NCBI GenBank assembly: GCA_947460235.1
Contig: CANHGK010000017.1
Coordinates: forward strand, 1-58,624
From: Paenibacillaceae bacterium
GTDB taxonomy: Bacteria > Bacillota > Bacilli > Paenibacillales > CANHGK01
Reading direction: 5' to 3'
Length of the DNA: 58,624 nucleotides
Part shown: in pieces, positions 6,971 to 32,915 of the stretch
Layout: each line of letters opens with the position of its first letter
Numbering within the stretch: position 1 is the first letter of the stretch
Translations under genes and position numbers: made by a program
Notes under the pieces: generated by a model
What the model was told of the DNA's origin: nothing
Seen by the model: the letters and a program-made list of their open reading frames with translations, nothing else
The model's database searches: none

Positions 6971-8662
6971 TTATTTTTTGAGGAAAACGGTGTTGTAAGG
7001 TTCGATCGTTACGATATTGTCTTTCATTTTGGAGATTGTGCCAGTTTGCGCAACAATCGTATTAAAGTCTTGATCGTTCAATGGAATTTCCTGCGGTTTT
7101 GCAGTTAAGTTATGAATGACTAAGATTTGATCGTTTTCTGTTTTTCGGATATACCCCATGACGTTCGTATTTTCAATGGAGTAATCAAATAATTGGCCGG
7201 ATTGTAGTGCAGGTTCACTCATCCGTAAATGTATCAAGTTACGGTAATGTGAAAGTAACGAGTTCGGATCAGCGGTCTCTGCTTCAACGGAAACGGGCTG
7301 ATCGGAGTTGTCACGAGATGGTTCCCAATGCGTTTTTCCTTCGCCATCGCTACCGTCTTTGTACCATAAGAATGGTTCACGAATGTATTCGTCTGGCTTG
7401 CGACCTTGCATTCCGATTTCTTCTCCATAATAAATGAATGGAGTACCCGGTATGGTTAAAAGTAGTGAAGCGGCCATGCGAGCATGATTCAAATCGCCGA
7501 ACATTTGACTAGCTGTGCGGTCAATATCATGGTTTGTTAAAAACACGCTATCTACCGCTTCGCCTTGCGATTGTTGACGATACAATTTGAACACATTTCC
7601 GATCGTGCTTTGAAGTGCCGATGCACGTTCTGATGAAGCGGAACTTAGTAATTGTTTTGCTAATTCAAAATTAAATCCGCTTGTTAATGCTTGATTTAAT
7701 TGAGGAGCGACAATAATTGGGGAGTCCCAAATTTCACCGACAACAAATGCGTCTGGTTTTACTGCATTCAAGCCCGCACGAAATTCTTGCCAAAACTTCT
7801 GATTGTTCGCAGTTGTTTTGGGATCAATTCGATCCGTAGGGAAGTTCTCGTAAAGATGTTTCGCAGCATCTAGGCGGAAGCCGTCAATGCCAAGTTTCAA
7901 CCAATATTGACCGACATTAATGATTTCTTTACGAACTTCTGGCTCATCAAAATTCAAGTCAGGCATGTTGTTCGAAAAAATTGCCATGTAATGTTTTTTG
8001 TCTCTTCCATAGAATGCAGGTCCACCGAACGGACTGCGTGAACCAGGTGAATAGCCGTGATCTTCTGCCCACACATACCAATTGTGGTATGTGCTTTTAT
8101 CATTCATTAACGCGTCCACAAACCAAGGATGTTTGTAGCTTGTATGATTGAATGCAACGTCTAAAATGATTTTAATGCCTCGTTTATGGGCTTGGTTAAC
8201 AAGTTCAACTAGATCTGCTTTTGTTCCATATTGAGGATTTACTTCATAGTAATCCGAAATATCGTATCCATGATAACTGGTTGATTTGAAAATAGGCATA
8301 AGCCAAATTCCAGTAACACCTAAATCAGAAGTGGTCTTTGCGTCTCCATCATTTAGATAATCTAACTTTTTGGTGATCCCCTTGAGGTCACCAACGCCAT
8401 CTCCGTCCGAATCATAAAATGAACGAACAAAGATTTCGTAAAATACGCCCTTATTACTCGAAGTTAATAATGCATCATCTGAAACCGGTGGAGGTGTTGC
8501 GATAACAAGTCCCACTTGAGAAGAAGGACCAGGTGAAGTTGAATCCTTCACTTGGTCCCCAGTTGTTTCAGCATGTGATGAACATCCATTCAAAATGAGT
8601 AATATCGCAGGGACGATTAAAAGACCCGAAAGCGATTTGAATGAAAGTTTCACGGTTTTCAT
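6971..8662 (-). CDS. Lipoprotein alpha-amylase, GH13 (GH13_36-like)
   Basis: 563 residues. A lipobox (LNGC, Cys27) follows a hydrophobic signal, so the enzyme should be anchored on the outer face of the membrane. The four GH13 regions are present: DVAFNH (168-173), GFRLD with nucleophile Asp265, VVGE with acid/base Glu310, and TNHD with Asp379. The start VFYEIFVRSFYDSDGDGVGD (about 73-92) resembles the GH13_36 maltodextrin-active amylases. It hydrolyses alpha-1,4-glucans, probably trimming oligosaccharides for the adjacent MalEFG importer. ATG 8662 has AAAGGATG upstream; a longer frame to 8701 overlaps malG. It is the last gene of malE-malF-malG-amy, 4 nt after malG. Confidence 0.93.
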   Translation of the reverse strand: MKTVKLSFKSLSGLLIVPAILLILNGCSSHAETTGDQVKDSTSPGPSSQVGLVIATPPPVSDDALLTSSNKGVFYEIFVRSFYDSDGDGVGDLKGITKKLDYLNDGDAKTTSDLGVTGIWLMPIFKSTSYHGYDISDYYEVNPQYGTKADLVELVNQAHKRGIKIILDVAFNHTSYKHPWFVDALMNDKSTYHNWYVWAEDHGYSPGSRSPFGGPAFYGRDKKHYMAIFSNNMPDLNFDEPEVRKEIINVGQYWLKLGIDGFRLDAAKHLYENFPTDRIDPKTTANNQKFWQEFRAGLNAVKPDAFVVGEIWDSPIIVAPQLNQALTSGFNFELAKQLLSSASSERASALQSTIGNVFKLYRQQSQGEAVDSVFLTNHDIDRTASQMFGDLNHARMAASLLLTIPGTPFIYYGEEIGMQGRKPDEYIREPFLWYKDGSDGEGKTHWEPSRDNSDQPVSVEAETADPNSLLSHYRNLIHLRMSEPALQSGQLFDYSIENTNVMGYIRKTENDQILVIHNLTAKPQEIPLNDQDFNTIVAQTGTISKMKDNIVTIEPYNTVFLKK

Positions 8663-8666
8663 AGTA

Positions 8667-9512
8667 TCATCCTTTGGTTGCTCCGGAAGTAAGACCGGCA
8701 ACTAGGAATCGTTGCAGGAACATGAACAACAATGTGATTGGAATTGCTGCAAGTACAGCACCAGCAGCAAAGGTTGTAAATTCAGTACTTGAACGCTGAC
8801 TTACCATTTCATATAAGCCCATTGCCAACGTTTTCTTGTCGGTGGAACGCAATACGAAACTAGAGAAAATATAATCGAAGAATGTGCCAGTAAATGATGT
8901 TAATGCGATATACGTGATCATTGGACGGGATAATGGTAAGACGATCCCGATAAAAATCCGAGTATGGCTAGCACCATCGATGGTAGCAGCTTCTTCTAAC
9001 GCTTTAGGAATCGTATCGAAGAATCCTTTTGCTACGAATGCACCAAGCGGTGCGCCCGCCGCATATACGAGAATTAAACCCCAATGCGAGTCGTTCAAGT
9101 TTGCAGAAATCAAGAGGACATAAATCGCGATCATCGACATGAAACCTGGGAACATCCCAAGGATTAACATAGAAGTCAAGATATTTTGACGACCTCTGAA
9201 GCGGAAACGTGAGAGTGCATATGCAGTAATAATCGTAAGTGAAGTTCCTAAAACAGTACTAATTAATGAAATCTTAAATGTATTCCAATACCAAAGCGGG
9301 TAGTTTAAGTTATCATCTGTAAACAATCGGACATAGTGATCAGTCGTTAATTGGTCTGGAATCAAGTGTTCACTAAATAAAGAATCCCCAACTTTAAACG
9401 ATGACATAACGATCCAGAGTGCAGGATAAATACTTACGACTGCGATAATAATTAGCAACAAATAAGTAAGCAACAGTTTGATGAATTGTTGTGAGTTATG
9501 ACTCAATTTCAT
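8667..9512 (-). CDS. malG: Maltodextrin ABC transporter permease, MalG/MdxG type
   Basis: 281 residues with about six membrane helices. The cytoplasmic EAA loop that contacts the ATPase is EEAATIDGASHTRIFIGIVL. The tail ends in a short GLTSGATKG. Together with MalF it forms the membrane channel for maltodextrins delivered by MalE. The start overlaps the malF stop by 4 nt (ATGA), so translation is coupled. No ATPase gene is in the operon; family knowledge suggests a shared MsmX-like ATPase encoded elsewhere. Confidence 0.95.
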   Translation of the reverse strand: MKLSHNSQQFIKLLLTYLLLIIIAVVSIYPALWIVMSSFKVGDSLFSEHLIPDQLTTDHYVRLFTDDNLNYPLWYWNTFKISLISTVLGTSLTIITAYALSRFRFRGRQNILTSMLILGMFPGFMSMIAIYVLLISANLNDSHWGLILVYAAGAPLGAFVAKGFFDTIPKALEEAATIDGASHTRIFIGIVLPLSRPMITYIALTSFTGTFFDYIFSSFVLRSTDKKTLAMGLYEMVSQRSSTEFTTFAAGAVLAAIPITLLFMFLQRFLVAGLTSGATKG

Positions 9513-10810
9513 TGGATCATGTCCTCCTCAATGAACGATTTTGAACGACGATAGTTCCAAATTGAGAAGGTGGCAATGATGATAAAGATAATAATACCAA
9601 CGGAAGATGCCAAGCCATACTCTTGACGATCAAGCGTCAATTTATACAACCAAGTAACGAGCAAATCGGTTTCACCTGCATACTGACAATCTGCACAAGG
9701 TGGATTACCATTCGTTAGAAGAAAGATCACGTTAAAGTTATTAATGTTTCCGGCAAATTGCATAATTAAGAGCGGCATAGTTGAGAATAATATCATTGGC
9801 AATGTAATTGCACGGAATTTCTGGAAGTCACTTGCGCCGTCCACATCAGCAGCCTCATAAAGGTCGCGAGGGATTGTTGTTAATACGCCTAAGATCAATA
9901 CCATAGACACAGGAACACCAAGCCACATATTTACAAAAATAACCGTCATCTTTGCCCAAAACGCATCGCCTAACCAGTCAATATTCTGAATTCCGAAAAA
10001 TGCAAGATATTGATTAATTGGACCGAAGTTACCATTAAAAAGGTTACGCATAACCAACAAGGAAATTAATTGCGGAATTGCGTAAGGGATAATGAATAAT
10101 GTACGCCAGAACGTCTTAAAACGCACACCATTTTGTTGAATCAACAACGCGACAAGCATTCCGCCAAAATATGTGGTAACGGTTGCGGCAATAGCCCAGA
10201 TGAACGTCCACAATAGGATTTTGTAGAATGTGTGACTGTACGTTGAAAGTTGAACTAAATTCATAAAATTGTCCATACCAACCCAGTCAACTAATTTACT
10301 CGGCGGGATGTGATTTCGGTCATAATTCGTAAATGCGAGTAGAATCATGAAGACCAGTGGGAGAATCGTGAAGATAAACACACCAATGATAGGAACTGTC
10401 AATAAAACAAAAGGGAAACTGTACGTCAAAATGTTTTTGATCGTTTGTCCAAACGTTTTTACAGAACCGTATACTTCACGTTCACGCCCAGTTTCGTAGG
10501 CGTCTTTAATGTTATAGATGTAACTGATTAAATAAAATCCGAATAAAATCAAGACAGCCAAGCCAATAATGAGCAAGTTTGTCGAATGGTCGTATTCTTT
10601 AGGGAATTTACCTTTAACCATTGTGCGGGCATGTTCACCAAGTGTCCAAATCCCCCAGATTGCATTTGGTAAATATTTACTAAACATGATCCAAGCAAAT
10701 ACGTTGTAGCACAAGAATAGTAGTGCTTTTTCAATTTGTCGATTGTACAGTTGTCCGAGTCCCATAAAGACAGCAGAGAGGATGCCGGCTGTACGCGCAT
10801 AATTTTGCAT
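9509..10810 (-). CDS. malF: Maltodextrin ABC transporter permease, MalF/MdxF type
   Basis: 433 residues, close to B. subtilis MdxF. An extra N-terminal region with two or three helices (GILSAVFMGLGQLYNRQIEK at about 9-28) precedes the transporter core, as in the Firmicute MdxF branch. The EAA loop is YEAADVDGASDFQKFRAITL. It pairs with MalG to import linear maltodextrins. The ribosome site AAAGGAG lies about 13 nt before the ATG, rather far. A hairpin separates it from malE and may lower its expression relative to the binding protein. Confidence 0.95.
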   Translation of the reverse strand: MQNYARTAGILSAVFMGLGQLYNRQIEKALLFLCYNVFAWIMFSKYLPNAIWGIWTLGEHARTMVKGKFPKEYDHSTNLLIIGLAVLILFGFYLISYIYNIKDAYETGREREVYGSVKTFGQTIKNILTYSFPFVLLTVPIIGVFIFTILPLVFMILLAFTNYDRNHIPPSKLVDWVGMDNFMNLVQLSTYSHTFYKILLWTFIWAIAATVTTYFGGMLVALLIQQNGVRFKTFWRTLFIIPYAIPQLISLLVMRNLFNGNFGPINQYLAFFGIQNIDWLGDAFWAKMTVIFVNMWLGVPVSMVLILGVLTTIPRDLYEAADVDGASDFQKFRAITLPMILFSTMPLLIMQFAGNINNFNVIFLLTNGNPPCADCQYAGETDLLVTWLYKLTLDRQEYGLASSVGIIIFIIIATFSIWNYRRSKSFIEEDMIQ

Positions 10811-10852
10811 CTAGCGTGTGCAGCTCCTTTCCGATTAGAAGTAATCGTGGAA

Positions 10853-10882
10853 TCACCCGCCGGAACCGAGTCCAGCGGGTGA
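10853..10882 (-). promoter_or_regulatory. Stem-loop between malE and malF
   Basis: Perfect 8-bp arms TCACCCGC and GCGGGTGA around a 14-nt loop, with no T-run on the minus strand. This looks like an mRNA stabilising or processing hairpin 3' of malE rather than a terminator. Confidence 0.55.
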
Positions 10883-10909
10883 GTTTGATTTGCATCAAAA
10901 TTTATTAAA

Positions 10910-12217
10910 TTATTTAGCAGCGGAAGCAGCGATTGCTTCTTTAATTTGTTTAACTGCGTTATCCAATTCGCCTTTTGCATCTTTGCCATCATTCCAGATC
11001 GTTGACAAGGAAGCGCCAGCAGGACCCCATACTGAACCCATTTCTGGGATTGAAGGCATAGGCTCGGAAGTGTCGAATTGCTCCAAGAAGCCAAGTACCA
11101 ACGGGTTGTTGGCAATTGCCGGATCGTCTTTCGTGTCGATACGGGATGGCAATGCGCCAGTTACTTCGTTGTTTTTGATCAACATTTCTTTACTCGTTGC
11201 AAAACGAGCGAACAATTTTGAAGCAATTGGGTATTTAGTGAAAGCAGAAACGTACCATGCTTTAACACCGGAGAAGGATTTTGAAGGTTTGCCTTCTGCC
11301 AATGCTGGCAATGGAGCTACTGCAAAGTTAACTTTACCTTTGAATGAGCTGATCGCCCAAGGTCCGTCAACGTTCATAGCCAATTTACCTTTGGAGAACA
11401 AGTCAGTTTTGATATCCCAGTTAACGTCACCGGATTTCAATGGCAATGCATCAGTTTTCAATGATTGCATCAATTGTAAACCTTGAACAGCTCCGTCATT
11501 AGCTAAACCGATGTCAGCAGGATCTGTACCGTCTTTACCAAATACATAACCACCCAATGATGAGAAGAATGGATATGAGAAGTAGAAGTTACCGATATCC
11601 CACATGAAGCCGTATTTGTTATCAGCTTTGTTGTTGAAGCCTTTGGAGAAAGTGATTACGTCAGCGTATGTTTTAGGAACATCTTTAACGATGTCTGTGT
11701 TGTAGAACAACGCATACGTTTCAACCGCTTTCGGGAATCCGTACAATACATCTTTATAGCTTGTAGCTCTAACAGCTGGAGCCATGTTTTCTTCTTTGGA
11801 TTGTTTCTCGTAAGTGTCATTAGGCAATACCAAGTTAGCTGCGATTGCGCGACCCAAGTTATCGTGTGGGAATACGAATACGTCAGCACCGATACCAGCA
11901 GGACCGTCAGTAGTTTCTTTTGTTACTGTGTCTGCTGCGCCCATTTCAGCGAATTCAAAGTCAACTTTGTATTTGTCTTTGAATTGTTTAAGAACGTCTT
12001 CTACAAATGGACGCTCTTCACGTGATTCCCAAACGAGCAATTTAGCGCCGTCTTCAGGTTTTGCTTCTGCCTCACCAGTGCCTTCACCAGCTGCTGCTGA
12101 TGCTTCAGGTGCTACTGATGCTGTTGCTGATGTATCTTCTTTTTTGCCGCATGCTGCTAGCGTAAATACGACGATCATCGCTAACACTAGTAAGAGTGCT
12201 TTTTTGAATGCTTTCAT
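10910..12217 (-). CDS. malE: Maltodextrin-binding lipoprotein, MalE/MdxE type
   Basis: 435 residues. The signal ends in a lipobox LAAC (Cys23), followed by an Ala/Glu-rich flexible linker (about 27-57) and a type-1 extracellular solute-binding fold (KLLVWESREERPFVEDVLKQ; GFPKAVETYALFYNTD; AMNVDGPWAISSF; WGPAGASLSTIW). It delivers maltodextrins to MalFG. It is the first gene of the operon. The ribosome site is odd: GGAG ends only 2 nt before the ATG, and a better-spaced GGGG is 13 nt away. Binding specificity is inferred from the amylase and permease neighbours. Confidence 0.93.
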   Translation of the reverse strand: MKAFKKALLLVLAMIVVFTLAACGKKEDTSATASVAPEASAAAGEGTGEAEAKPEDGAKLLVWESREERPFVEDVLKQFKDKYKVDFEFAEMGAADTVTKETTDGPAGIGADVFVFPHDNLGRAIAANLVLPNDTYEKQSKEENMAPAVRATSYKDVLYGFPKAVETYALFYNTDIVKDVPKTYADVITFSKGFNNKADNKYGFMWDIGNFYFSYPFFSSLGGYVFGKDGTDPADIGLANDGAVQGLQLMQSLKTDALPLKSGDVNWDIKTDLFSKGKLAMNVDGPWAISSFKGKVNFAVAPLPALAEGKPSKSFSGVKAWYVSAFTKYPIASKLFARFATSKEMLIKNNEVTGALPSRIDTKDDPAIANNPLVLGFLEQFDTSEPMPSIPEMGSVWGPAGASLSTIWNDGKDAKGELDNAVKQIKEAIAASAAK

Positions 12218-12656
12218 GTCTCCAAATCCGTCCCCTCATGAGTTGAATGGTGGTGGTTCTTAGAATGCGTACTACGTGACTAAACGACACTGCTGTTGTG
12301 ACGCACTGCTCATGAAAAGCTCATGATTCATGCTGCGAGTTAGAGAATTCGATATTATTTATCAAACTCCTTTAACTTTAGCAAAAAAATGTGTTTGGTA
12401 ATATGTAGTATCAATCACTTGCCCGGAACAGCAAAGAATTGTTGATACCAAACGCATTCAAATCAAGAACATCACATGTTTGATACGATCACATGATATA
12501 CACAACAAAATTGTGCATACCTCGTGTTGCACAAACATATCTTACTTCAAGTTTTTAAATCCATCAAGCAAAAAGTTTAAAAAATCGCCAAAATTAAAAC
12601 CGCTTTCTATGAAAAAAGCACATAGAAAGCGGTCTCATTTGGCTAAAAAATACATT
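12218..12656 (-). promoter_or_regulatory. malE promoter region with paired inverted repeats
   Basis: 439 nt without a gene. A candidate minus-strand promoter is TTGCTA (12379-12384) and TAAATA (12356-12361), 17 nt apart. Upstream of it are inverted elements AATGTGTTTGGTA (12388-12400) and TACCAAACGCATT (12446-12458), complementary at 12 of 13 positions. Further upstream is TTGTGC-N12-GCACAA (12511-12534), related to a palindrome before the LacI-type gene. The rest holds a long malE leader and the LacI-gene terminator. Confidence 0.5.
12599..12634 (-). terminator. Terminator of the LacI-type gene
   Basis: ACCGCTTTCTATG pairs with CATAGAAAGCGGT, and the leftward flank on the minus strand is T-rich. 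Confidence 0.75.
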
Positions 12657-13685
12657 TTATACTCTACTTACCTTATTCATTGAAGATTCGCGAATAATTA
12701 ACCGGTGAGGAATAATCATTTCTTTTGCGTTCAAAGGTTCATTTTGAACGACGCGGATTAATGTTTGAGAAGCCGAATATCCTAGTTGATAGGTTCCGAT
12801 ATCGATAGATGAAATCGGAGGCGATGCTAATTCCGAAATTGCGATGTTATTAAAGCTGACTAGTTTAATTTGGTCTGGCACTTTAATTCCAAGTTCAGTC
12901 AAGCCGCGCAAAACTCCAAATGCTGCCACGTCATCGAATACGACCAACGCAGTAGGTGGATTTTGTTGACTCATTATAAATGACATCGCACGATATCCAC
13001 TTTGAGAAAGTAATTCGCCTTCGATAATCCAATCTTGAGCAATGTTAATATTTGCTTCGGACATTGCTTTTTTGTAGCCAGCCAAACGGTCTTGAGATAC
13101 GACCATCTCTTCAGGCCCAGTTACAAAACGAATATTTGTATGACCTTGAGCAATCAAATGATTTGTTGCATCGTAAGCAGCTTGTACGTTGTCATTATCC
13201 ACGGATGTAACGTCTGGATAATCCGCTGAACGTCCAATTAGCACGAAAGGAAAGTTCTGGTCACGCAAAAATTGAATGGACGGGTCATTTTTACGAGAAG
13301 AAAGTAAGATGATTCCGTCAACGCGGCGACCTTTAACCAATTTGGTAATTGTTTCGATTTCATCTTTATCTGAGAAACTTGATGTTAATAAAATGTCATA
13401 ACTAGCGCGCATGGATTGTGCTAAGATTCCACGGATTATCTCAGCAAAGAACAAGTTAAGAAACAATTCTTCCGCTGGTCTAGGCAAAATGATACCTAAT
13501 GTACGAGTGGTTTTTGAAACCAAACTTTTTGCCATGATGTTCGGGAAGTAACCGAGTTCTTCCATAATCAACTTGACCTTTTTTGTAGTTTGTGGACTGA
13601 TCCGTGTGTGGCCGGAAATAACGCGCGATACCGTTGAAGGTGACACACCTGCAATTCTGGCAACATCTTTAATCGTAACTGACAT
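12657..13685 (-). CDS. LacI-family transcriptional regulator of the maltodextrin/starch locus
   Basis: 342 residues. The N-terminal helix-turn-helix is canonical (TIKDVARIAGVSPSTVSRVI, residues about 4-23), followed by the hinge helix and the periplasmic-binding-protein-like effector domain (LGIILPRPAEELF, VVFDDVAAFGVL, SFNNIAISELASPPISSI). The start at 13685 follows GGGGGT by about 8 nt; a longer frame to 13718 adds a non-conserved stretch. Placed between the malE operon and the divergent 13-repeat binding protein, it most likely responds to a maltodextrin and controls both. Palindromes in both intergenic regions support this. Confidence 0.9.
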   Translation of the reverse strand: MSVTIKDVARIAGVSPSTVSRVISGHTRISPQTTKKVKLIMEELGYFPNIMAKSLVSKTTRTLGIILPRPAEELFLNLFFAEIIRGILAQSMRASYDILLTSSFSDKDEIETITKLVKGRRVDGIILLSSRKNDPSIQFLRDQNFPFVLIGRSADYPDVTSVDNDNVQAAYDATNHLIAQGHTNIRFVTGPEEMVVSQDRLAGYKKAMSEANINIAQDWIIEGELLSQSGYRAMSFIMSQQNPPTALVVFDDVAAFGVLRGLTELGIKVPDQIKLVSFNNIAISELASPPISSIDIGTYQLGYSASQTLIRVVQNEPLNAKEMIIPHRLIIRESSMNKVSRV

Positions 13686-14120
13686 CCATTCATACCCCCG
13701 AATTTTGACTGATTCCATATTTTTTCCGCTCTTGTAAGCGTTTGAACTGGAATATTCTGATTGTTCAAATGTTTTACCATGTTAGCTTAGCACAAGATAT
13801 TGAGTTGTGCCATACGTTGCACAAAATAATGTGCAAATTTGCACGTTATTTTTTCCAGCACCAATACAAACGATTGCTTAGTTTACTCATTTATCAACGA
13901 ACCCGTAATATTTAGACAAAAAAATGCTTTTCACGTCTAAATTCTAGTTGTGAAAAGGCGGAAATTAAGATATATTATATTGTGCGGGAACGTTTGAACG
14001 AACAAACGATCTCATATATATATTTGCAAAGAATAAATTGTAAACGTATGCAAAACTAGTATGCGGATGTTATTTATCGTTGCGAAATTATTGTAATTTA
14101 TACATTTAGGGGGAATTCAG
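13686..14120. promoter_or_regulatory. Divergent control region between the LacI-type gene and the 13-repeat gene
   Basis: 435 nt without a gene. It holds TTGTGC-N8-GCACAA (13805-13824), a perfect 14-bp palindrome GTGCAAATTTGCAC (13831-13844, near-perfect over 26 bp), a promoter for the rightward gene (below), CGTTTG-N6-CAAACG (13991-14008) over the expected transcription start, and a cre-like TGTAAACGTATGCA (14039-14052, 12 of 14 matches to TGWAANCGNTNWCA). Confidence 0.6.
13948..13976 (+). promoter_or_regulatory. Promoter of the 13-repeat starch-binding gene
   Basis: TTGTGA and TATATT are 17 nt apart. The CGTTTG/CAAACG operator-like palindrome begins 15 nt downstream of the -10. Confidence 0.5.
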
Positions 14121-17100
14121 TTGTTGTCTCTGACAAAGCAAAAATGGACCGTTTGGGCATTGGTTTGTGCGATTGTTTTCACGCAATTTGCAATTAGTTT
14201 AATGTTCCAATCCACTTCAGCAAATGCGTATTCCAATACGCTAGAAGCGGAAAATCAGGCGTTGAACAATGGTGCAACGAAAAACACAGATCACAAAGGT
14301 TATAGTGGAAGCGGTTTTGTTGATAATTTATGGAAACCGAACGCTGAGGTTGTTTTTAAGGTCTCCACACAGTATTCCGGAGATTATAACATGACATTAC
14401 GTTATGCCAATGGTAATGATAGCTGGAGAAGCATGACCATTTATGTTAACGGTAATAAAATCAGATCCACCAATTTACCTAATACCTCATCTTGGGATAC
14501 TTGGACCGACAAAGTTGAACAACTTTCTTTGATTGCTGGCGATAACGTGATTGCAATTAAAAAAGAAGTCTCCGATAACGGTGGAATCAACCTCGATTAT
14601 GCGAATTTCACGGATACTAATGTCTCCTCTGGCTCCAAGCAAGTTACTGTTTATTATCGCGGTAATTTCACCAATCCATACATCCATTACAAAAAAGATA
14701 ATGTGAACTGGACAACCGAACCTGGCGATAAAATGGCTGGGGCAACTGATGCGTTTGGTTTCTACAAAGCGGTGATTTACACATCTGCTGATGATTTAGA
14801 ATTAACATTCAATAATGGTAGAGATAATACTGGCAATGTATCACAGTGGGATCGCAACAACGGGCAGAACTACAAATATTCTGGCGTGACCTCTGGTTCA
14901 GTATTTACATTCGATCAAGGGACAGGACTTAAAGCAGGTTCACCAAATGGTGTAACGATCGGAAATGGTACCTCAAAAACGGTTACCCTTTACTACAAAG
15001 GTAATTTCACCAATCCTTATATTCACTTTCGTTTGAACGCTGCGGGGTCAACTCCGGAGTGGACAGTTCAACCGGGGACAAAATTGAATTATTCCACGGT
15101 ATATCCGGGTTATTATTCAGCGACAATTACGGTTTACACACCTTATTTGGAATGTGTATTCAACAATGGTTCAATTAACGGACAAGTTGGCGGAGATGTT
15201 CGCGAATGGGATAAAAACAATGGAGCAAACTATTTTGCACAAAATATTGTTGATGGACAATCGTATACGTACGAATCAGGCAACATCCGATCAGGTCTCC
15301 CGAATGGTGGAGGTAATTCGTTTGATCAATTTAATGGTACTAAACAAGTAACTGTTTACTATAAAGGACATTTCACAAGTCCGTATATTCATTATCGTTT
15401 GCAAAATGCAAATTCGGGTTCTGCAGAATGGTCAAACGAACCGGGAACAAGAATGTCGTTATCCGAAATTACTGGTTATTCCAAAGCAATTATTTCAACA
15501 AGTGCAGACAATTTAGAAGTTGTTTTCAATAATGGTCTAGTAAATGGTAAAGTAGTTGATTGGGATCGTAACAATGGTGCAAACTATGTTGCTGCAAATG
15601 TTTTCAATGGAAGTATCTATACGTATGATGAGTCAACGAAACAGTTAACCATTGGAGATCCGAATGGCGTATTGACGAGCACCACTGACTCTTCGAATAC
15701 AATCAATATCTTCTATAAGAAGAACGCATCAGTTCCAACGCCTTACATTTTTTATCGTCTTACGTATAACAATGTTGTGAATTCACCGAAAGAACCAGGC
15801 TACAAAATGGCTGAATCGAATTACAACGGTTATGTGAAATACACACTTACATTGCCTCCAGGAGTTTCGACGGTAGAAGCTGCATTTAATAATGGATTAG
15901 AAAATGGCATTGTAAAAACGTGGGATCGTCCTGCAAATGATAATTATTTCTTGCTCCAAGCGGGATATAACACAATTGCTGATGACGAAATTTCAAGAAG
16001 TATTCCGAATGTAAATAATATTTCTACTGAAGCAACCGTATATTATAAAACGAAATTTAAGAATACGTATCTGTACTACAAAGCTCAAAACGGATTATGG
16101 GTATCAGATCCAGGCGTTAAAATGGATGATTCAGAATACCTTGGATACACAAAATACACATTCAAAACGGGTGCGTATGAACAAACTGAAGTTCGTTTTA
16201 CGGGTAATAATAGTTCAACAAATCTTTTTGAATCAGACCCGCCTTCTTTGAAAGATTCATACATCATTCCAACGGGAATAGTCACATTGTCCGGTACAAA
16301 CGAAAAAGGGATTACGACGATCGAAGATGGTAAAATCCTTGCAGGCAAGCCGAAAAGTGGTAATGAGATCACGGTTTACTACAAAAAAGGCTTAACATTA
16401 TCACCGTATTTGTTGTACCGCGTTTCAACAAATAATTGGAACCAACAACCAGGTTTGAAGATGACTGATACAACCGAATATCCAGGATATTCAAAAGTAA
16501 CGTTCAATGTTGGCGACGCGAAAATTGTTGACGCAGCATTTAATGATGGTACAGGTAAACTCGATGATAACAAGTCGAAATACTATCAATTACCAATTGG
16601 TGTGAATACGGTTTCTGATGGCGAAGTTGCTCCAGGATTACCGACGAGCGGAAACAAAGTAACGTTATACTTCAATAAAACAGGTTTCGATGCTCCATTG
16701 ATCAATTATCGTACCCCTGAAGGTGTATTTCTTAAAGAAGCGAAGTTTTTGACGCAATCTGATATTACTGGTTACTATAAAATTGACCTTAATGTAGGTA
16801 GCGCATCAAAAATTATTGCTTATTTCACGAATGGTGCCGACATTACGAAAATGGATGATAACAGCGGAAAATACTATGAATTCCCAGTAGGATTAGCTGC
16901 GATATATACATTATCGAATGGAACGATTACATTAAACAAACCGACATCTGCTACTGCTGGTAATGAAGTAACCGTTTATTTCAAACAAGGTAACTTGCCG
17001 ATTTCATTTGTTTCCCGTAAACCAGGTGCAACAAAATGGAATGATCCGATCCAATTGCTAACATCCGAATTTACCGGATACGGTAAAGTTAATGTGAAAA

Positions 17101-18839
17101 TTGGTGCGGATAATCAGTTGGAAGGTTATTTTACTGATGGTACGACGAAATGGGATAATTCTGGATCGAATTACACATTCAGTATCGGTACTCAAACATT
17201 TAGTAATGGTTTGATTACACAAGGTGCTCCAAGTCAATTAACGAAAAACGAAATCGTTGTTTATTATAAAACAGGTATTGCAACGCCATATATTTTCTAT
17301 AAACCTCAAGGTGGAATTTGGACATCTGGCGAGATTATGGCCCCATCAGAAGTGCAGGGATATAGTGTAGCTCGTTTGAATTTAAGTTCTGCTTCACAAG
17401 CAGATATTTATTTCAATAATGGCGGTGTTCTTGATAACTTCAATGGTAAAAACTACACATTGCAAGTTGGGACTTATACAATTAACAATTCAAACATTAC
17501 ATTAAGTGCACCAACAGCTGCGAACACGAACAAAGTAACGGTGTATTACAAATTACCACAAAATAACTTTACCTTCTTATACTATCGTCTTCCAGGAGGG
17601 GTTTGGAGTACGACTGGTATTCCAATCATTTCTTCTGACGTAGCGGGTTACGGTAAAGCGGATGTTAACATGGGTTCCGCGGATCGTGTTGAAATGTATT
17701 TCGATCAAGGTAATGGATCGCCAATTGATAATTACAACAATCAGAACTATTCGTTAACACCAGGAACATCAACGATTGAAGATAGTACAATTTATCAAGG
17801 GAAACCAACTGGACAAGGGAATCAAGTAACGATCTATTATGCACAAGGATTTTTAAGTCCATTTGTGTACTATCGCACGGGAACGAATGACTTCAACAAA
17901 GCACCTGGTCTTCCAATGCAGGATTCGGAATACAAAGGATTTAAGAAAGTAACATTCTCAATCGGTCGCGCGAGTCAAGTAGAAGTGTATTTCCAAAACA
18001 GCAACGGTCGAATTGATAATAACACGAACAAAAATTATACGTTTGCAGTTGGAACGTCAGTATTTAGCGAAGGTTCTATCATTTATGGTCAACCAAGCGA
18101 AGCGTTGATTAATAAAATGCAATCTGGAAATACAACGCCAAGTCTTGATCTTACGGACATGGGAACAGATTTGGATTTGTTCAACAATGACAACACATCT
18201 ACGATTTATTACAAACGTGGGTATACAACTCCGTATGTTCAATACCGTGTAAGTGGTGGACAGTGGAGTGTTGCTCCGGGTAAGAAAATGTCAACGTCTG
18301 AGTTCGCTGGTTATTCCAAAGTAACTTTGCCAATCGGAACAGCGGATGAAGTTCAAATTCGCTTCTCTAATGGTAATGGCATGTATTCGAACGCTTACTA
18401 TTTCTCAGCAGGAATGTCAACATTCGAAGCTGGTAAAATTTACGCGGGTACACCAACGAAAGCTGCAACAACAAACTATACAGCCACGATTTACTATAAA
18501 CGTGGATATACGACACCATATGCATATTACCAACCTACCGATGGTAGTTGGTTAGCTCTTCCAGGTAAGAAAATGGTCGTTTCCGAGATTGCTGGGTACT
18601 CCAAAATTACGATTTCACTTGGTAAATTGTTAAGCATTAAAGTTAAAATTGGTGATGGAAAAGGTAAATGGTTCAAGAGTGGAACGTATTATCGCTTCTA
18701 TAAAGGCATCAATACATTTGTGAATGGTGAAATTACAGAAGGAAAACCGACTGCAATTAAGAAGAGTACGACAACTACTCCGAAGAAGAAAACGACAACT
18801 ACTACCACAAAAAAAGCATCAGTAATCACTAAAAACTAA
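14121..18839 (+). CDS. Giant secreted non-catalytic starch-binding protein: CBM35/6-like plus 13 CBM25-like repeats
   Basis: 1572 residues. A signal peptide (cleavage expected near Ala36) precedes a CBM35/CBM6-like module (38-165, NTLEAENQ, GGINLDYANF). Then come 13 CBM25-like repeats starting near residues 171, 283, 407, 524, 635, 747, 845, 948, 1043, 1137, 1234, 1358 and 1451, each opening with a strand like VTVYYKG-N-F-T-PYIHY. The tail (1546-1572) is Lys/Thr-rich. No glycosidase motif, LPxTG, SLH or LysM was found. Repeats 1-3 keep the His and two Trp used by CBM25 for starch; later repeats lose some or all. The start is TTG with AGGGGG 7 nt before. It may be a surface or extracellular starch-capturing scaffold; the anchor could be the basic tail. 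Function is inferred. Confidence 0.88.
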   Translation: MLSLTKQKWTVWALVCAIVFTQFAISLMFQSTSANAYSNTLEAENQALNNGATKNTDHKGYSGSGFVDNLWKPNAEVVFKVSTQYSGDYNMTLRYANGNDSWRSMTIYVNGNKIRSTNLPNTSSWDTWTDKVEQLSLIAGDNVIAIKKEVSDNGGINLDYANFTDTNVSSGSKQVTVYYRGNFTNPYIHYKKDNVNWTTEPGDKMAGATDAFGFYKAVIYTSADDLELTFNNGRDNTGNVSQWDRNNGQNYKYSGVTSGSVFTFDQGTGLKAGSPNGVTIGNGTSKTVTLYYKGNFTNPYIHFRLNAAGSTPEWTVQPGTKLNYSTVYPGYYSATITVYTPYLECVFNNGSINGQVGGDVREWDKNNGANYFAQNIVDGQSYTYESGNIRSGLPNGGGNSFDQFNGTKQVTVYYKGHFTSPYIHYRLQNANSGSAEWSNEPGTRMSLSEITGYSKAIISTSADNLEVVFNNGLVNGKVVDWDRNNGANYVAANVFNGSIYTYDESTKQLTIGDPNGVLTSTTDSSNTINIFYKKNASVPTPYIFYRLTYNNVVNSPKEPGYKMAESNYNGYVKYTLTLPPGVSTVEAAFNNGLENGIVKTWDRPANDNYFLLQAGYNTIADDEISRSIPNVNNISTEATVYYKTKFKNTYLYYKAQNGLWVSDPGVKMDDSEYLGYTKYTFKTGAYEQTEVRFTGNNSSTNLFESDPPSLKDSYIIPTGIVTLSGTNEKGITTIEDGKILAGKPKSGNEITVYYKKGLTLSPYLLYRVSTNNWNQQPGLKMTDTTEYPGYSKVTFNVGDAKIVDAAFNDGTGKLDDNKSKYYQLPIGVNTVSDGEVAPGLPTSGNKVTLYFNKTGFDAPLINYRTPEGVFLKEAKFLTQSDITGYYKIDLNVGSASKIIAYFTNGADITKMDDNSGKYYEFPVGLAAIYTLSNGTITLNKPTSATAGNEVTVYFKQGNLPISFVSRKPGATKWNDPIQLLTSEFTGYGKVNVKIGADNQLEGYFTDGTTKWDNSGSNYTFSIGTQTFSNGLITQGAPSQLTKNEIVVYYKTGIATPYIFYKPQGGIWTSGEIMAPSEVQGYSVARLNLSSASQADIYFNNGGVLDNFNGKNYTLQVGTYTINNSNITLSAPTAANTNKVTVYYKLPQNNFTFLYYRLPGGVWSTTGIPIISSDVAGYGKADVNMGSADRVEMYFDQGNGSPIDNYNNQNYSLTPGTSTIEDSTIYQGKPTGQGNQVTIYYAQGFLSPFVYYRTGTNDFNKAPGLPMQDSEYKGFKKVTFSIGRASQVEVYFQNSNGRIDNNTNKNYTFAVGTSVFSEGSIIYGQPSEALINKMQSGNTTPSLDLTDMGTDLDLFNNDNTSTIYYKRGYTTPYVQYRVSGGQWSVAPGKKMSTSEFAGYSKVTLPIGTADEVQIRFSNGNGMYSNAYYFSAGMSTFEAGKIYAGTPTKAATTNYTATIYYKRGYTTPYAYYQPTDGSWLALPGKKMVVSEIAGYSKITISLGKLLSIKVKIGDGKGKWFKSGTYYRFYKGINTFVNGEITEGKPTAIKKSTTTTPKKKTTTTTTKKASVITKN
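14631..18755 (+). repeat. Array of 13 CBM25-like coding repeats (about 95-125 codons each)
   Basis: Protein repeats share VTVYYK..., PG-K-M, GYSK, FNNG and NY anchors. DNA of repeats is diverged, so the array looks old rather than recently amplified. Repeats 1-4 are 111-124 residues with a WDRNNGxNY-type loop; most of repeats 5-13 are 93-104 residues with shortened loops. Confidence 0.85.
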
Positions 18840-18849
18840 TAAATAAAAA

Positions 18850-18896
18850 GGGTATTTCCAAACAGATCAGATCTGTATTGGGAATACCCTTTTTTT
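18850..18896 (+). terminator. Terminator of the 13-repeat gene
   Basis: AGGGTATTTCCAAACAGATC folds back on GATCTGTATTGGGAATACCCT, followed by a run of seven T. Confidence 0.85.
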
Positions 18897-29191: not shown

Positions 29192-32100
29192 TTACGGTTG
29201 CCGGGTAATCTTCTGGTTTTGATAGCGGTAATTTCCATTGCTTAAAATAAATTGATGTACAATTGGCTTACTATTCACGGTTTCGTTGACCTTCATGAGA
29301 ATACTAACGGTATCGGAAGGGAATTGCATTTGAACGAATGACGTATTTGGTCGCTCTAAATCCATCATTGGGTTACTCGTAAGTGCTTGCCAAACTCCCT
29401 TTGAGTTTTTGAAACTCCATTTTGCTGATTTATTAAGAGCTGAGGCGAAAAAGATTGTCGCCGCATTTTTTTTGGGAGCGGGAATGCCTTGGATGATTTC
29501 TTCTGAATCAATTGAGAATTTACCTGTTTTTGCAGTGAATGCAGTAACTGATTGATTATCATCGGATGGATCATTCACATAAAACTCAACGGTTTCTAAT
29601 GCAGAGTTTTTTAAGTTGATCGTTGTAAAATCATACCCTGCGCGATCAGAAGGATACAGTTTATTTATTTTTGCGTTATCCCAGGATTGGGCTGGATCAT
29701 GCCATACAATACTTGCACCAGCTGTCAAATGTTCAACATAAATCAAGACTTGCCGAACGTCACTTGGCGTTACAATTGGTTTTGGTGTCGTTACAGGTTT
29801 TGGTGTCGTTACAGGTTTTGGTGTAGCTCTAGGTGTTGGAATGGGTGTCCGCTGTTCGGTAGGTTCAGCTTTTGTACCGCCGGGCGCACCGGGTTTGAAT
29901 GTACCGTTCTCAAAGGTAACCACACCTTTGGGGAATAAATAGTTACTGCCTTTATTGTTATCCCACTGGCTACCGCCATCGTTGAAATCGGCTTCAAGTT
30001 CGACTGCTTTGCCAAGTTCGATTGTGATTTTGCTATAACCGGAAAATTCGCTATCTTTCATAGCAATGCCGGGAGGTGTCGTCCATGCATATCCGGTCGC
30101 GCGATAGTGAATATACGGTTTGGAAAATGTTTTTTTGTAGTAGACTGTAATTTGATTTCCACCAGGTGCTGGTGTTGCAGTTACCGCACCTGAAGTCGGG
30201 GAATCCGTTGCAGCAGGTTTTGAAGGTGATGGTTTGTCGGTCAAGAAAGGATCAGTTCCGATCATATCTCCATTCACATCTTCCACGATTTTGCCACTAC
30301 TTCGATCTTTACGGAATTTTCCTGCACCGACAAAAACTTGTTGTATATCTGTGCGCGTGATATTGCCGTTTCCGTCAGTTGCCTCAATGTAGTAATCAAG
30401 AAGTTGATCCCGATAATCATCAATGTAACTGAAATACATATCGCCAATTTCTTGTGCAGGTAAAATTTTATAATTTTGATGTACTGGAGCGGACTGCCAC
30501 GGAACCCCGTTCATATCTTTTTGCAAATCACGTTTTTTCATTGCATATGAGGTCCATTTTCCGACATTGTCTGAATTGATGTTTTTAACACCTTTCGCTT
30601 CGAGTGAACCTGGATCGTAGACGCGGAATGTATTATCTTTCACATCAGCGAATTTAGACTTATGGACACGAATTTTCAATTTGATATCTTTGATGTTGCT
30701 CATGTCATATGCGTACGTATAAATTCCGAATTTGTTATTGAAATAGTGTAGGGTCCAACCTTCGGATTTATCGTTGTTTGCACTTCCTGGATTATACGGC
30801 CAACGTTGTGGCCACCAGACTGAAGGGCCTGTGCGATCCAAATTGGACTTTTTATCAACATATGGTCTTGAAAAATGTAACGATTGATTGAATGCAAGCG
30901 TCGGCTTGACGTTGTCGTCGGTGTTTTCGTCGTAATATCCGAAACCAGAATCCATTGCCGGAAGTAGGAAGTACCACGCAAGTTCGGCAGGATTGGCACC
31001 GCCTTTGTAATCATTCGTCGGATCCCCTTTAACTGGGAACGATAGCATCCACGGATTTAATTGGTTACCGGAATAAGTAACTTCTTTATCCAATTTCGTT
31101 TTTGGAGACCAATATCCAGGATGGCTATCGAGCCAAATTTGTTCGGCGGTTTTTGCATAGTTAATTGCGGCTTGTAATAAAGCAAAATTCCGTTCGAGAT
31201 AATGATAACCATATTCGAAGGAGACAGTCATGCCTTCGGGGTTTCCTTGGAAATTTTTCTTGGGTGTATAATGAAAACCCATCGCTTTATTGAAATCAGG
31301 AAATTGACCTTTCCAAATACAAGGTGGCAACTTCCAGTGATGCCACTGTGGATCGGCAGATGAATCGCGTGTATCGACCCATGAACCATCTTGAACATGT
31401 GCTACATCATCGGCAGGAATCGGATTTTTTTTCAAATAGGAATCAACGCCCATTCCGGTTACGCCAGACTCGCTGTTCGTGACATTCGCAGCATTTTGCC
31501 ATGTGTCTAGTGAACCTGCACGCCCAGAAGAATTATCACCGTCATGTGCAAGGACATAAAACAATTTCCGCGAGGTCAACGTTTCATAAGCCTTTAAGAA
31601 TCCTGCGCTTGTTTGACCTTCCCATCCTTCCTCCCACGAACCTGCTTGATCAACGGGAATCCCGGCGATGCGGTCTTCTGATCCGTCGATTGGATCGACA
31701 TACTTTACCCAGTGCGGCGTTGCAGCGAATGGAAATTTGTTGACCATTTTTTGTTGTTCATGCTTCATTTCCTGATCAAGCCAAGATCCGAGATTGCTTG
31801 TATTCTGCATATCTGCGCGGTTTGGTGGACTGACAAGTGTATCTTTTCCTGGATCATTTAAGTATGGATAATCGCGTAGTGCCCGGGAAAAATGAATATT
31901 ACCCATGACGGACCATTCAATGCCAAGTTTCTTTAGTACGGGAATAATTCGTTCGGAGAACCCTAGTTCGGTTGGGAAAAAACCTTTGGATGATTCGAAC
32001 TTATCGCCAAGAAAATAGGGCTGAGCTAATGTTACATTTTGAAAAATCATATCTTTAAGCATGTACTCGTCGCCGACCAGTGGTCCCATGGAGTGATGGC

Positions 32101-32680
32101 CCGTAAAATGGATCGTATCAAGCGCTTTATCACCGGATTTGTTGAGAAGAGAAGCGCTGTTCCGCCAAGCGGAACCCCAATTTTTATTGTTGTAATCGGG
32201 CACTGCACCGGTTTCGACAAGGCTTTGTACATTGTTTACCACTGCGCCGGACATCGTGACATGCACCTGGCCATTCGGATTCTTGACGATTAATTCTTTG
32301 GCGACCTGCATCGGCCAGTACATGTAAGCACCTGTTTTTGCATGGTGAGAATAATATGTGACTAAGTCGTCGTGAGGCATCGGTTTGCTTGATTTTCCGC
32401 CTTTTCCGTCTGGAAGGAAATAGGGATAGTTGGACGGAGGATTATTTTTCAATTGGATCACTTGTCCGTCGTATGTATAACGAATCGGAGAACCCACGGA
32501 CGCTTTGTCATATTGAGTCAAATCATAATATGGCCAAAAGTTCGGCATGTGATTGTGATAAATATGAGTGGATGCAATTTCAGCAGATGCTGTAGGCGTT
32601 CCCACTATGAATGAAAACGATTGCAAAACAAGAGATACAGAGATGATAGCGGTTACAAAAGCTGGTCTGACATTTATCAT
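29192..32680 (-). CDS. Secreted alpha-amylase, GH119, with CBM25 and C-terminal beta modules
   Basis: 1162 residues. Signal peptide to about Ala33. The catalytic part (about 37-520) shows GH57/GH119-type regions: HNHMPNFWPY (42-51), GFFPTE with Glu238 as predicted nucleophile, and LAHDGDN with Asp380 as predicted acid. The 142-residue gap equals that between Glu231 and Asp373 proposed for the Bacillus circulans GH119 enzyme IgtZ. A middle beta domain (about 640-790) leads to a canonical CBM25 (843-934; His858, Trp866, Trp906), a TPKPVT linker (940-973) and two further beta modules (974-1066, 1070-1160). It would hydrolyse starch outside the cell. ATG 32680 follows GGAGG by 6 nt. Confidence 0.88.
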   Translation of the reverse strand: MINVRPAFVTAIISVSLVLQSFSFIVGTPTASAEIASTHIYHNHMPNFWPYYDLTQYDKASVGSPIRYTYDGQVIQLKNNPPSNYPYFLPDGKGGKSSKPMPHDDLVTYYSHHAKTGAYMYWPMQVAKELIVKNPNGQVHVTMSGAVVNNVQSLVETGAVPDYNNKNWGSAWRNSASLLNKSGDKALDTIHFTGHHSMGPLVGDEYMLKDMIFQNVTLAQPYFLGDKFESSKGFFPTELGFSERIIPVLKKLGIEWSVMGNIHFSRALRDYPYLNDPGKDTLVSPPNRADMQNTSNLGSWLDQEMKHEQQKMVNKFPFAATPHWVKYVDPIDGSEDRIAGIPVDQAGSWEEGWEGQTSAGFLKAYETLTSRKLFYVLAHDGDNSSGRAGSLDTWQNAANVTNSESGVTGMGVDSYLKKNPIPADDVAHVQDGSWVDTRDSSADPQWHHWKLPPCIWKGQFPDFNKAMGFHYTPKKNFQGNPEGMTVSFEYGYHYLERNFALLQAAINYAKTAEQIWLDSHPGYWSPKTKLDKEVTYSGNQLNPWMLSFPVKGDPTNDYKGGANPAELAWYFLLPAMDSGFGYYDENTDDNVKPTLAFNQSLHFSRPYVDKKSNLDRTGPSVWWPQRWPYNPGSANNDKSEGWTLHYFNNKFGIYTYAYDMSNIKDIKLKIRVHKSKFADVKDNTFRVYDPGSLEAKGVKNINSDNVGKWTSYAMKKRDLQKDMNGVPWQSAPVHQNYKILPAQEIGDMYFSYIDDYRDQLLDYYIEATDGNGNITRTDIQQVFVGAGKFRKDRSSGKIVEDVNGDMIGTDPFLTDKPSPSKPAATDSPTSGAVTATPAPGGNQITVYYKKTFSKPYIHYRATGYAWTTPPGIAMKDSEFSGYSKITIELGKAVELEADFNDGGSQWDNNKGSNYLFPKGVVTFENGTFKPGAPGGTKAEPTEQRTPIPTPRATPKPVTTPKPVTTPKPIVTPSDVRQVLIYVEHLTAGASIVWHDPAQSWDNAKINKLYPSDRAGYDFTTINLKNSALETVEFYVNDPSDDNQSVTAFTAKTGKFSIDSEEIIQGIPAPKKNAATIFFASALNKSAKWSFKNSKGVWQALTSNPMMDLERPNTSFVQMQFPSDTVSILMKVNETVNSKPIVHQFILSNGNYRYQNQKITRQP
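29778..29825 (-). repeat. 18-bp tandem repeat encoding the TPKPVT linker
   Basis: Two exact copies and a partial third of an 18-bp unit code for Thr-Pro-Lys-Pro-Val-Thr repeats between CBM25 and the C-terminal modules. Such repeats can change length by slippage. Confidence 0.8.
32612..32625. promoter_or_regulatory. cre-like catabolite-control site inside the GH119 signal-peptide region
   Basis: TGAAAACGATTGCA matches TGWAANCGNTNWCA at 13 of 14 positions, about 55-70 nt inside the gene. Intragenic cre sites act as roadblocks for CcpA in Bacilli. Confidence 0.5.
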
Positions 32681-32696
32681 GGGAGTCCTCCAAGGA

Positions 32697-32915
32697 TTAG
32701 CGTAAACGACCGATTTCGGTAACGATGGCTTCGATTTCAGAAATGCTAAATGCCGATTTCGAAACGACCAAATCATACAAATCGAGCAAGTCTTCATGAC
32801 TGCTAAGTGGGATTGAATCTCCAGACATCGCTTGTGCGTTGGCAACGCGTAACTTTGTTGTGATGGTCTCGATCATAAATGCGATTGATTCGCGGCTTGC
32901 TTGTGTTACATCCAT
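32697..32915 (-). CDS. DUF1128 family protein (YfkK-like)
   Basis: 72 residues, closely patterned on B. subtilis YfkK (FMIETITTKLRVANA, DLYDLVVSKSAFSISEIEAI). Small, soluble and probably helical; the role is unknown. The ATG at 32915 follows GGAGGG by 7 nt; the longer frame to 33002 includes a terminator-like hairpin and is rejected. It lies just upstream of the GH119 gene, 16 nt away, so the two could share a transcript. Confidence 0.85.
   Translation of the reverse strand: MDVTQASRESIAFMIETITTKLRVANAQAMSGDSIPLSSHEDLLDLYDLVVSKSAFSISEIEAIVTEIGRLR

Follow-up and report, generated by a model that had tools for sequence, protein, structure and literature searches.

We identified in the window (the whole stretch of 58,624 nucleotides that was analysed) a gene for a 1572-residue protein that is very probably a secreted, non-catalytic alpha-glucan-binding protein. 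This protein, here called the array protein, carries a signal peptide, one CBM35 module and 13 CBM25 modules, R1 to R13 (Table 1). Alignment of the modules indicates that the 13 Pfam CBM25 stretches are not 13 canonical starch-binding sites, as only R1-R3 keep H26/W34/W74 while R4-R13 have lost the site and kept the family profile. The first-pass annotation, which had read a signal peptide, one CBM35/6-like and 13 CBM25-like modules, agrees with Pfam and with our reading of the frame as to content, but its picture of 13 starch-binding modules is supported only in part. Its proposal of a starch-capturing function accordingly stands in part: a predicted secreted, non-catalytic, multi-CBM25 product, the neighbouring importer operon, a host that is by its gene content a starch specialist and a cre-like site resembling those of several other CBM25 genes are in line with it, and the notion that every copy is a working binder is not.

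The ribosome-binding site and the terminator after the stop codon indicate that the array gene is one complete gene (our terminator scan was restricted to short loops, and the long hairpin fell outside its list). Pfam detects CBM_25 with an E-value of 6.9e-180 in 13 significant stretches, all above the cut-off of the family (PF03423), which answers the profile check proposed in the annotation, as well as CBM_35 (E 2e-10) and CBM_6 (E 1e-7) at about residues 41-164. No glycosidase motif had been seen in the protein, and indeed Pfam finds no catalytic family in it even at E<=1 and NCBIfam gives zero matches. Modules occupy residues 37-1544, and the longest unassigned stretch is a linker of 29 residues, which leaves no space for a hidden catalytic domain and rules this candidate out. 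By inspection the signal is of the signal-peptidase-I type. Pfam and reading of the sequence reveal no LPXTG, SLH, lipobox or transmembrane tail in the protein, and no sortase was found in the genome; the array protein is therefore not sortase-anchored, and the earlier statement that it lacks a classical wall anchor holds.

Table 1. Positions of the array gene, its modules and neighbouring features in the window.
Feature	Positions	Strand	Basis
Operon: solute-binding protein, two ABC permeases, GH13 enzyme	6971..12217	-	Pfam
TTGTGC-N12-GCACAA inverted repeat, upstream of importer operon	12511..12534	+	motif scan
LacI-family regulator, divergent to array gene	12657..13718	-	Pfam
TTGTGC-N8-GCACAA inverted repeat, upstream of LacI-family gene	13805..13824	+	motif scan
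cre/LacI-family operator-like site TTGTAAACGTATGCA, 83 nt before start codon	14038..14052	+	exact WTGNAANCGNWNNCA match
Shine-Dalgarno-like AGGGGG	14108..14113	+	read by eye; 7 nt before TTG start
Gene for secreted CBM35 + 13 x CBM25 protein (predicted)	14121..18839	+	open 1572 codons, TTG start
Signal peptide, about residues 1-36, cleavage near SANA/YS, no lipobox	14121..14228	+	by inspection
CBM35 module, residues 37-168	14229..14624	+	Pfam and PDB sequence matches
CBM25 R1, H26/W34/W74 intact	14634..14945	+	module alignment
CBM25 R2, H26/W34/W74 intact	14970..15305	+	module alignment
CBM25 R3, H26/W34/W74 intact	15339..15662	+	module alignment
Derived CBM25 R4, F/V/W at 26/34/74	15690..16010	+	module alignment
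Derived CBM25 R5, Y/W/F at 26/34/74	16023..16355	+	module alignment
Derived CBM25 R6, L/W/L at 26/34/74	16356..16646	+	module alignment
Derived CBM25 R7, N/F/M at 26/34/74	16647..16946	+	module alignment
Derived CBM25 R8, S/W/W at 26/34/74	16956..17234	+	module alignment
Derived CBM25 R9, F/W/L at 26/34/74	17241..17516	+	module alignment
Derived CBM25 R10, Y/W/I at 26/34/74	17523..17810	+	module alignment; modelled with R11
Derived CBM25 R11, Y/F/I at 26/34/74	17814..18098	+	alignment; predicted fold similar to 2c3x, Z 16.9
Derived CBM25 R12, Q/W/Y at 26/34/74	18186..18458	+	module alignment
Derived CBM25 R13, Y/W/W at 26/34/74, net charge +9	18471..18752	+	alignment, charge count
28-residue Lys/Thr tail (8 Lys, no acidic residues)	18753..18836	+	no LPXTG, no SLH
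Strong intrinsic terminator, long hairpin then T run	18845..18896	+	read by eye
GH57/GH119-like enzyme, one canonical and one weak CBM25, likely start 32680	29192..32845	-	Pfam, alignment

The module copies are diverged. Best amino-acid identities within the array are 35-53%, and nucleotide repeats are short and about 60-80% alike, a divergence that rules out an assembly artefact or chance repeat. Recent tandem amplification was likewise ruled out for most copies, the only groupings being R1-R3 (support 0.48), R12-R13 (0.95) and R6 with R11 (0.73). A peptide-pattern scan of 84,980 genomes, which detects close relatives only and excluded the source genome, returned no close relative of the array protein, and no orthologue was found. 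Our literature search, of limited coverage, yielded no paper evidently on a protein of such architecture.

The CBM35 module, the only copy found in its genome, is closest among PDB sequences to the CBM35 of the GH31 alpha-glucosidase (5X7O) and of cycloisomaltooligosaccharide glucanotransferase (CITase). The CITase CBM35s belong to subfamily III, which binds glucosyl-oligosaccharides (PMC5408701). In the alignment, the SSWxTW loop has both of its Trp, and the concave-face Trp of CITase is apparently absent. The nearest relatives and the SSWxTW Trp pair suggest that this module is related to the alpha-glucan-type CBM35s.

The maltotetraose site of BhCBM25 has been experimentally defined as W34, W74, H26, D81 and N76 in the numbering of 2C3V (PMC4625611); the same comparison describes modules of starch synthases that have Y at 74 and an aromatic residue at 26. 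We aligned, in this numbering, the CBM25 modules of the window's genome and of a relative, G002. The triad H26/W34/W74 is intact in 3 of the 13 array modules (R1-R3), 68 of the genome's other 86 and 35 of 38 in G002. None of the ten modules R4-R13 retains it (0/10 vs 68/86; Fisher p 1.2e-6), and the difference persists at comparable core identity (0/10 vs 31/45; p 7e-5), although these statistics assume independence, which does not hold among related modules. Under a looser definition, aromatics at both 34 and 74, the array has 7/13 against 77/86 (p 0.004), and six of the ten derived modules lack the pair.

When positions conserved in 124 other modules are taken as reference, the largest conservation drops in R4-R13 fall at 26, 35, 74 and 68, followed by 65, 77, 81 and 34, which are mostly the known CBM25 site or its sequence neighbours. 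Core positions 38, 39, 49, 50, 67, 82, 87 and 101 are retained at 0.89-1.0. The kept core and the comparison at equal divergence point to a loss that is mostly specific to the binding face and not general decay. At the level of single residues, H26 is absent from all ten derived modules, with an aromatic (F, Y) at position 26 in six of them. In R6, R7, R9, R10 and R11, an L, I or M stands in place of the second aromatic. Column comparison across R4-R13 revealed no common replacement motif, and the substitutions are heterogeneous. W34 is kept in seven of the ten (10/13 over the whole array) and two aromatics at 34/74 are retained in R5, R8, R12 and R13, so that some derived modules may bind weakly.

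An AlphaFold2 model of the R10-R11 pair (pLDDT 90.9, pTM 0.73), built with an alignment of other tandem pairs from the window's genome and G002, has as its best PDB match the CBM25 structure 2c3x, with Z 16.9 and an rmsd of 1.7 over 94 residues, as the structure-prediction check suggested in the annotation would have it. Against 2c3x, 2c3w and 2c3v, Foldseek and VIA-align give VIA Z-scores of 16.2-16.9 and rmsd of 1.7-2.0 over 94-95 residues. The modelled derived modules are thus predicted to adopt the CBM25 beta-sandwich fold. Linkers measure 8-11 amino acids between R1-R4 and 0-4 between R4-R11, with 29 residues before R12. In several other multi-CBM25 proteins of the window's genome and G002, successive modules lie about 95-100 residues apart, an FN3-sized distance, and FN3 matches are frequent in such proteins (Pfam). 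Along the array the net charge stays close to zero; it reaches +18 over residues 1445-1572, the last 128, which comprise R13 and the tail. A generally basic stalk was ruled out, as R4-R13 do not differ in net charge from other modules (p 0.96) and only these last 128 residues are basic.

We propose for the array protein the role of a secreted tether for alpha-glucans, without catalytic activity and made up of a binding head and a stalk. The head, residues 37-514 (the CBM35 and R1-R3 on short flexible linkers), would grip starch by avidity. R4-R13, with the binding face lost, the fold kept and most modules abutting head to tail, would serve mainly as a long stalk or spacer, whose geometry we extrapolate from the one predicted pair. 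The basic C-terminal end is the only candidate for attachment and may rest on the cell wall, held non-covalently by the anionic cell envelope; no known anchor matches the Lys/Thr tail, with which release into the medium without attachment would also be compatible. In this way the cell would keep granules, or the glucan released from them, near the amylases that it tags with CBM25 and near the maltodextrin importer encoded beside the array gene. We give the complete arrangement of head, stalk and wall about an even chance. That CBM25 has been re-used as building material, multiplied and stripped of its binding face into a structural stalk on which an intact starch-binding head is displayed, by a host that places CBM25 on many kinds of secreted protein, is a tentative idea to which we assign slightly less than even probability.

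Alternatively, all or most of the 13 modules may bind starch, forming a multivalent capturing fibre in which altered but working, or weak single-Trp, sites add avidity. The fold kept in the predicted pair, W34 in most array modules and the paired aromatics in seven of the 13 speak for it, and fusion of CBM25 to CBM26 is known to lower the Kd for granular starch from about 30 uM for the modules alone to 0.63 uM (PMC3398936). We nevertheless consider such a fibre rather unlikely, as five derived modules have an aliphatic residue or Met in place of the second aromatic, H26 is lost throughout, no common motif has replaced it and most other modules of the genome retain the site when equally diverged. 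Binding of a different ligand by the derived modules (another glycan, a partner protein or a cell-wall polymer), making the protein a bispecific bridge, is very improbable: the F/Y at position 26 together with the retained W34 could offer a different platform, and R13 is unusually basic, but the replacements are heterogeneous and share no new motif.

The protein could also be released, acting as a soluble granule binder that coats or loosens granules or bridges them to other secreted CBM25 proteins. The missing anchor motifs and sortase fit release, as does the presence of SLH domains beside CBM25 in two starch enzymes of the genome (37 SLH matches genome-wide), which suggests that proteins destined for the wall carry a marker where one is required. 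The strongly basic C-terminal end points instead to an electrostatic partner, and we regard release as unlikely, a shade more so than the multivalent fibre. Compared with these alternatives, the tether remains our preferred reading.

The array gene was described as next to a maltodextrin importer, and Pfam confirms a maltodextrin-type ABC importer/GH13 operon there. Within the window, the TTGTGC..GCACAA repeats occur only upstream of this operon and of the lacI gene. Control of the array by the neighbouring LacI regulator was considered and rejected: its likely operator lies about 300 nt from the array start, and the site before the array is a different, cre-like one. The only other cre-like matches in the window are at 32611-32658, at the 5' end of the GH119-like gene. 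That gene, placed 13 kb away in the annotation, has its end 10.4 kb from the end of the array, and its start is about 18 kb from where the array begins. In stretches taken from the genome, 11 of 15 cre-like matches are close to the 5' end of a gene with CBM25, a zone that makes up 5.6% of the sequence, but the zone was widened after the GH119 case had been seen, which makes the p value optimistic, and the stretches were picked for their CBM25 genes. When annotated starts were used, a cre-like site was found upstream of 6 of 37 genes. It is plausible that the array is regulated together with other starch genes; joint regulation with the importer next to it has no specific support.

The array protein belongs to CBM25 by profile and, for the modelled pair, by fold; ten of its modules lack the full set of binding residues in the alignment. 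The CBM25 modules of the Bacillus halodurans G-6 amylase (2C3V/W/X) and the Paenibacillus polymyxa beta/alpha-amylase (2LAA, 2LAB) are of the same sequence family, as a PDB sequence search with the array modules also found (2LAA/2LAB/2C3V). They have the fold in common with the modelled pair, and R1-R3 keep their whole site; however, they occur in one or two copies on an amylase, whereas the array has 13 enzyme-free copies, ten without the site. Since these ten pass the family cut-off, a CBM25 profile match is not proof of a working starch site, which calls for caution in annotation.

SusE and SusF of Bacteroides are non-catalytic, multi-module starch binders near an importer, and are outer-membrane lipoproteins. 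They carry X25-type modules (PMC9112005). The likeness to the array protein lies in how they would work, as the latter is Gram-positive and lacks the lipobox of a lipoprotein signal. Ruminococcus bromii Sas20 is a secreted Gram-positive starch-binding protein without an enzyme, has a dockerin and is a member of the amylosome (PMC9112005). The array protein may work most like these starch adherence proteins but is not one of them, as its modules differ and a cohesin system is missing; nor does Sas20 form a 13-fold array. A structure search found the N-terminal module of R. bromii Sas6 similar to the R10-R11 model fold. No cohesin was found in the genome or in the array protein, so the latter is not an amylosome scaffold, to which the first-pass annotation had likened it in concept; a Pfam scan of the CBM25 ORFs detected no dockerin. 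In Microbacterium aurum, MaAmyA and MaAmyB require CBM25 for activity on granular starch, and MaAmyB has two CBM25 and four FN3 domains (PMC5093618). This is a CBM25-bearing, granule-degrading system like that of the array host, but its proteins are enzymes.

Breakdown of raw starch granules hinges on the cell's means of holding them. One known Gram-positive solution with non-catalytic binders, the R. bromii amylosome, relies on cohesin-dockerin docking; here CBM25 sits directly on about 40 ORFs, among them enzymes potentially able to remove protein and phosphate, and there is also a 13-module enzyme-free binder. The source genome (2.72 Mb, 99.2% complete) belongs to the order Paenibacillales, as indicated by about 90% identity of the window's SufB to that of Paenibacillus and Cohnella; no other genome of its genus or family was among the relatives sampled. 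It contains 98 CBM25 matches, 95 above the Pfam cut-off, in about 40 ORFs, a few of which run into contig ends and could represent two halves of a single gene. Beyond the window, and so out of the first-pass annotation's view, lie about 40 further ORFs with CBM25, and the CBM25 ORFs total roughly 125 kb, or 4.6% of the genome.

We surveyed CBM25 within the genome's own phylum and order, scoring at most 11 candidates per genome. No other genome in an even sample of 398 from the phylum reached 11 matches, and among 395 of the order only G002 (38) and G547 (at least 11) did so; nearly all others had 0-8. The annotation remarked that CBM25 usually comes attached to amylases as one to a few copies, which agrees with these low counts across most of the order and fails for the source genome. 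The most CBM25 per ORF seen elsewhere is five in G002 and six in the source genome, against 13 in the array.

The CBM25 enzymes of the genome include GH13, GH15, GH31, GH57/119-like and isoamylase-type proteins (Pfam). CBM25 is also fused to a subtilase, two M6 peptidases, two phosphoesterases and a glucose/sorbosone dehydrogenase-type protein (L018, L030, L033, L026, L045, L029), where it would act as a starch-binding tag on enzymes that do not cut starch. From such gene content we infer an organism specialised on starch granules, whose secretome is tagged with a single family of starch-binding modules.

Several CBM25 proteins have no recognised enzyme domain, including two with an N-terminal membrane segment and a minor-pilin-like one. 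The latter, a prepilin-type protein (L035:11584-13137, -), has the N_methyl motif GLSLVELL followed by FN3, CBM25 with an intact site and CBM20. Its gene adjoins one for a PilV-like minor pilin (related: L035:13165-13836, -; L035:13994-16033, +), and a type IV pilus operon (PilB, PilT, PilC, two pilins, PilD, PilM) lies on a separate contig (L144). This suggests a starch-binding pilus, perhaps with the module at the tip. The other two are encoded by overlapping genes (L024:5946-8336 and 8333-10744, -), each product having the membrane segment, FN3 and two CBM25; they are possible membrane-anchored starch binders. Genes for a solute-binding protein and a CBM21 protein are close by (see also L024:1445-2383, +). 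A 220-aa CBM25 protein (L036:4674-5336, +) has no evident signal peptide and is possibly intracellular.

Many genomes of the phylum sample have weak CBM25 matches of about 22-39 bits, mostly to profile positions 2-85 and in frames of about 100-270 aa. G002, likewise a small genome (2.5 Mb) and from another family of the same order, carries its 38 CBM25 (L049-L060) on amylase-, FN3-, CBM26- and CotH-containing proteins, an expansion that may be either independent of, or shared with, that of the source genome.
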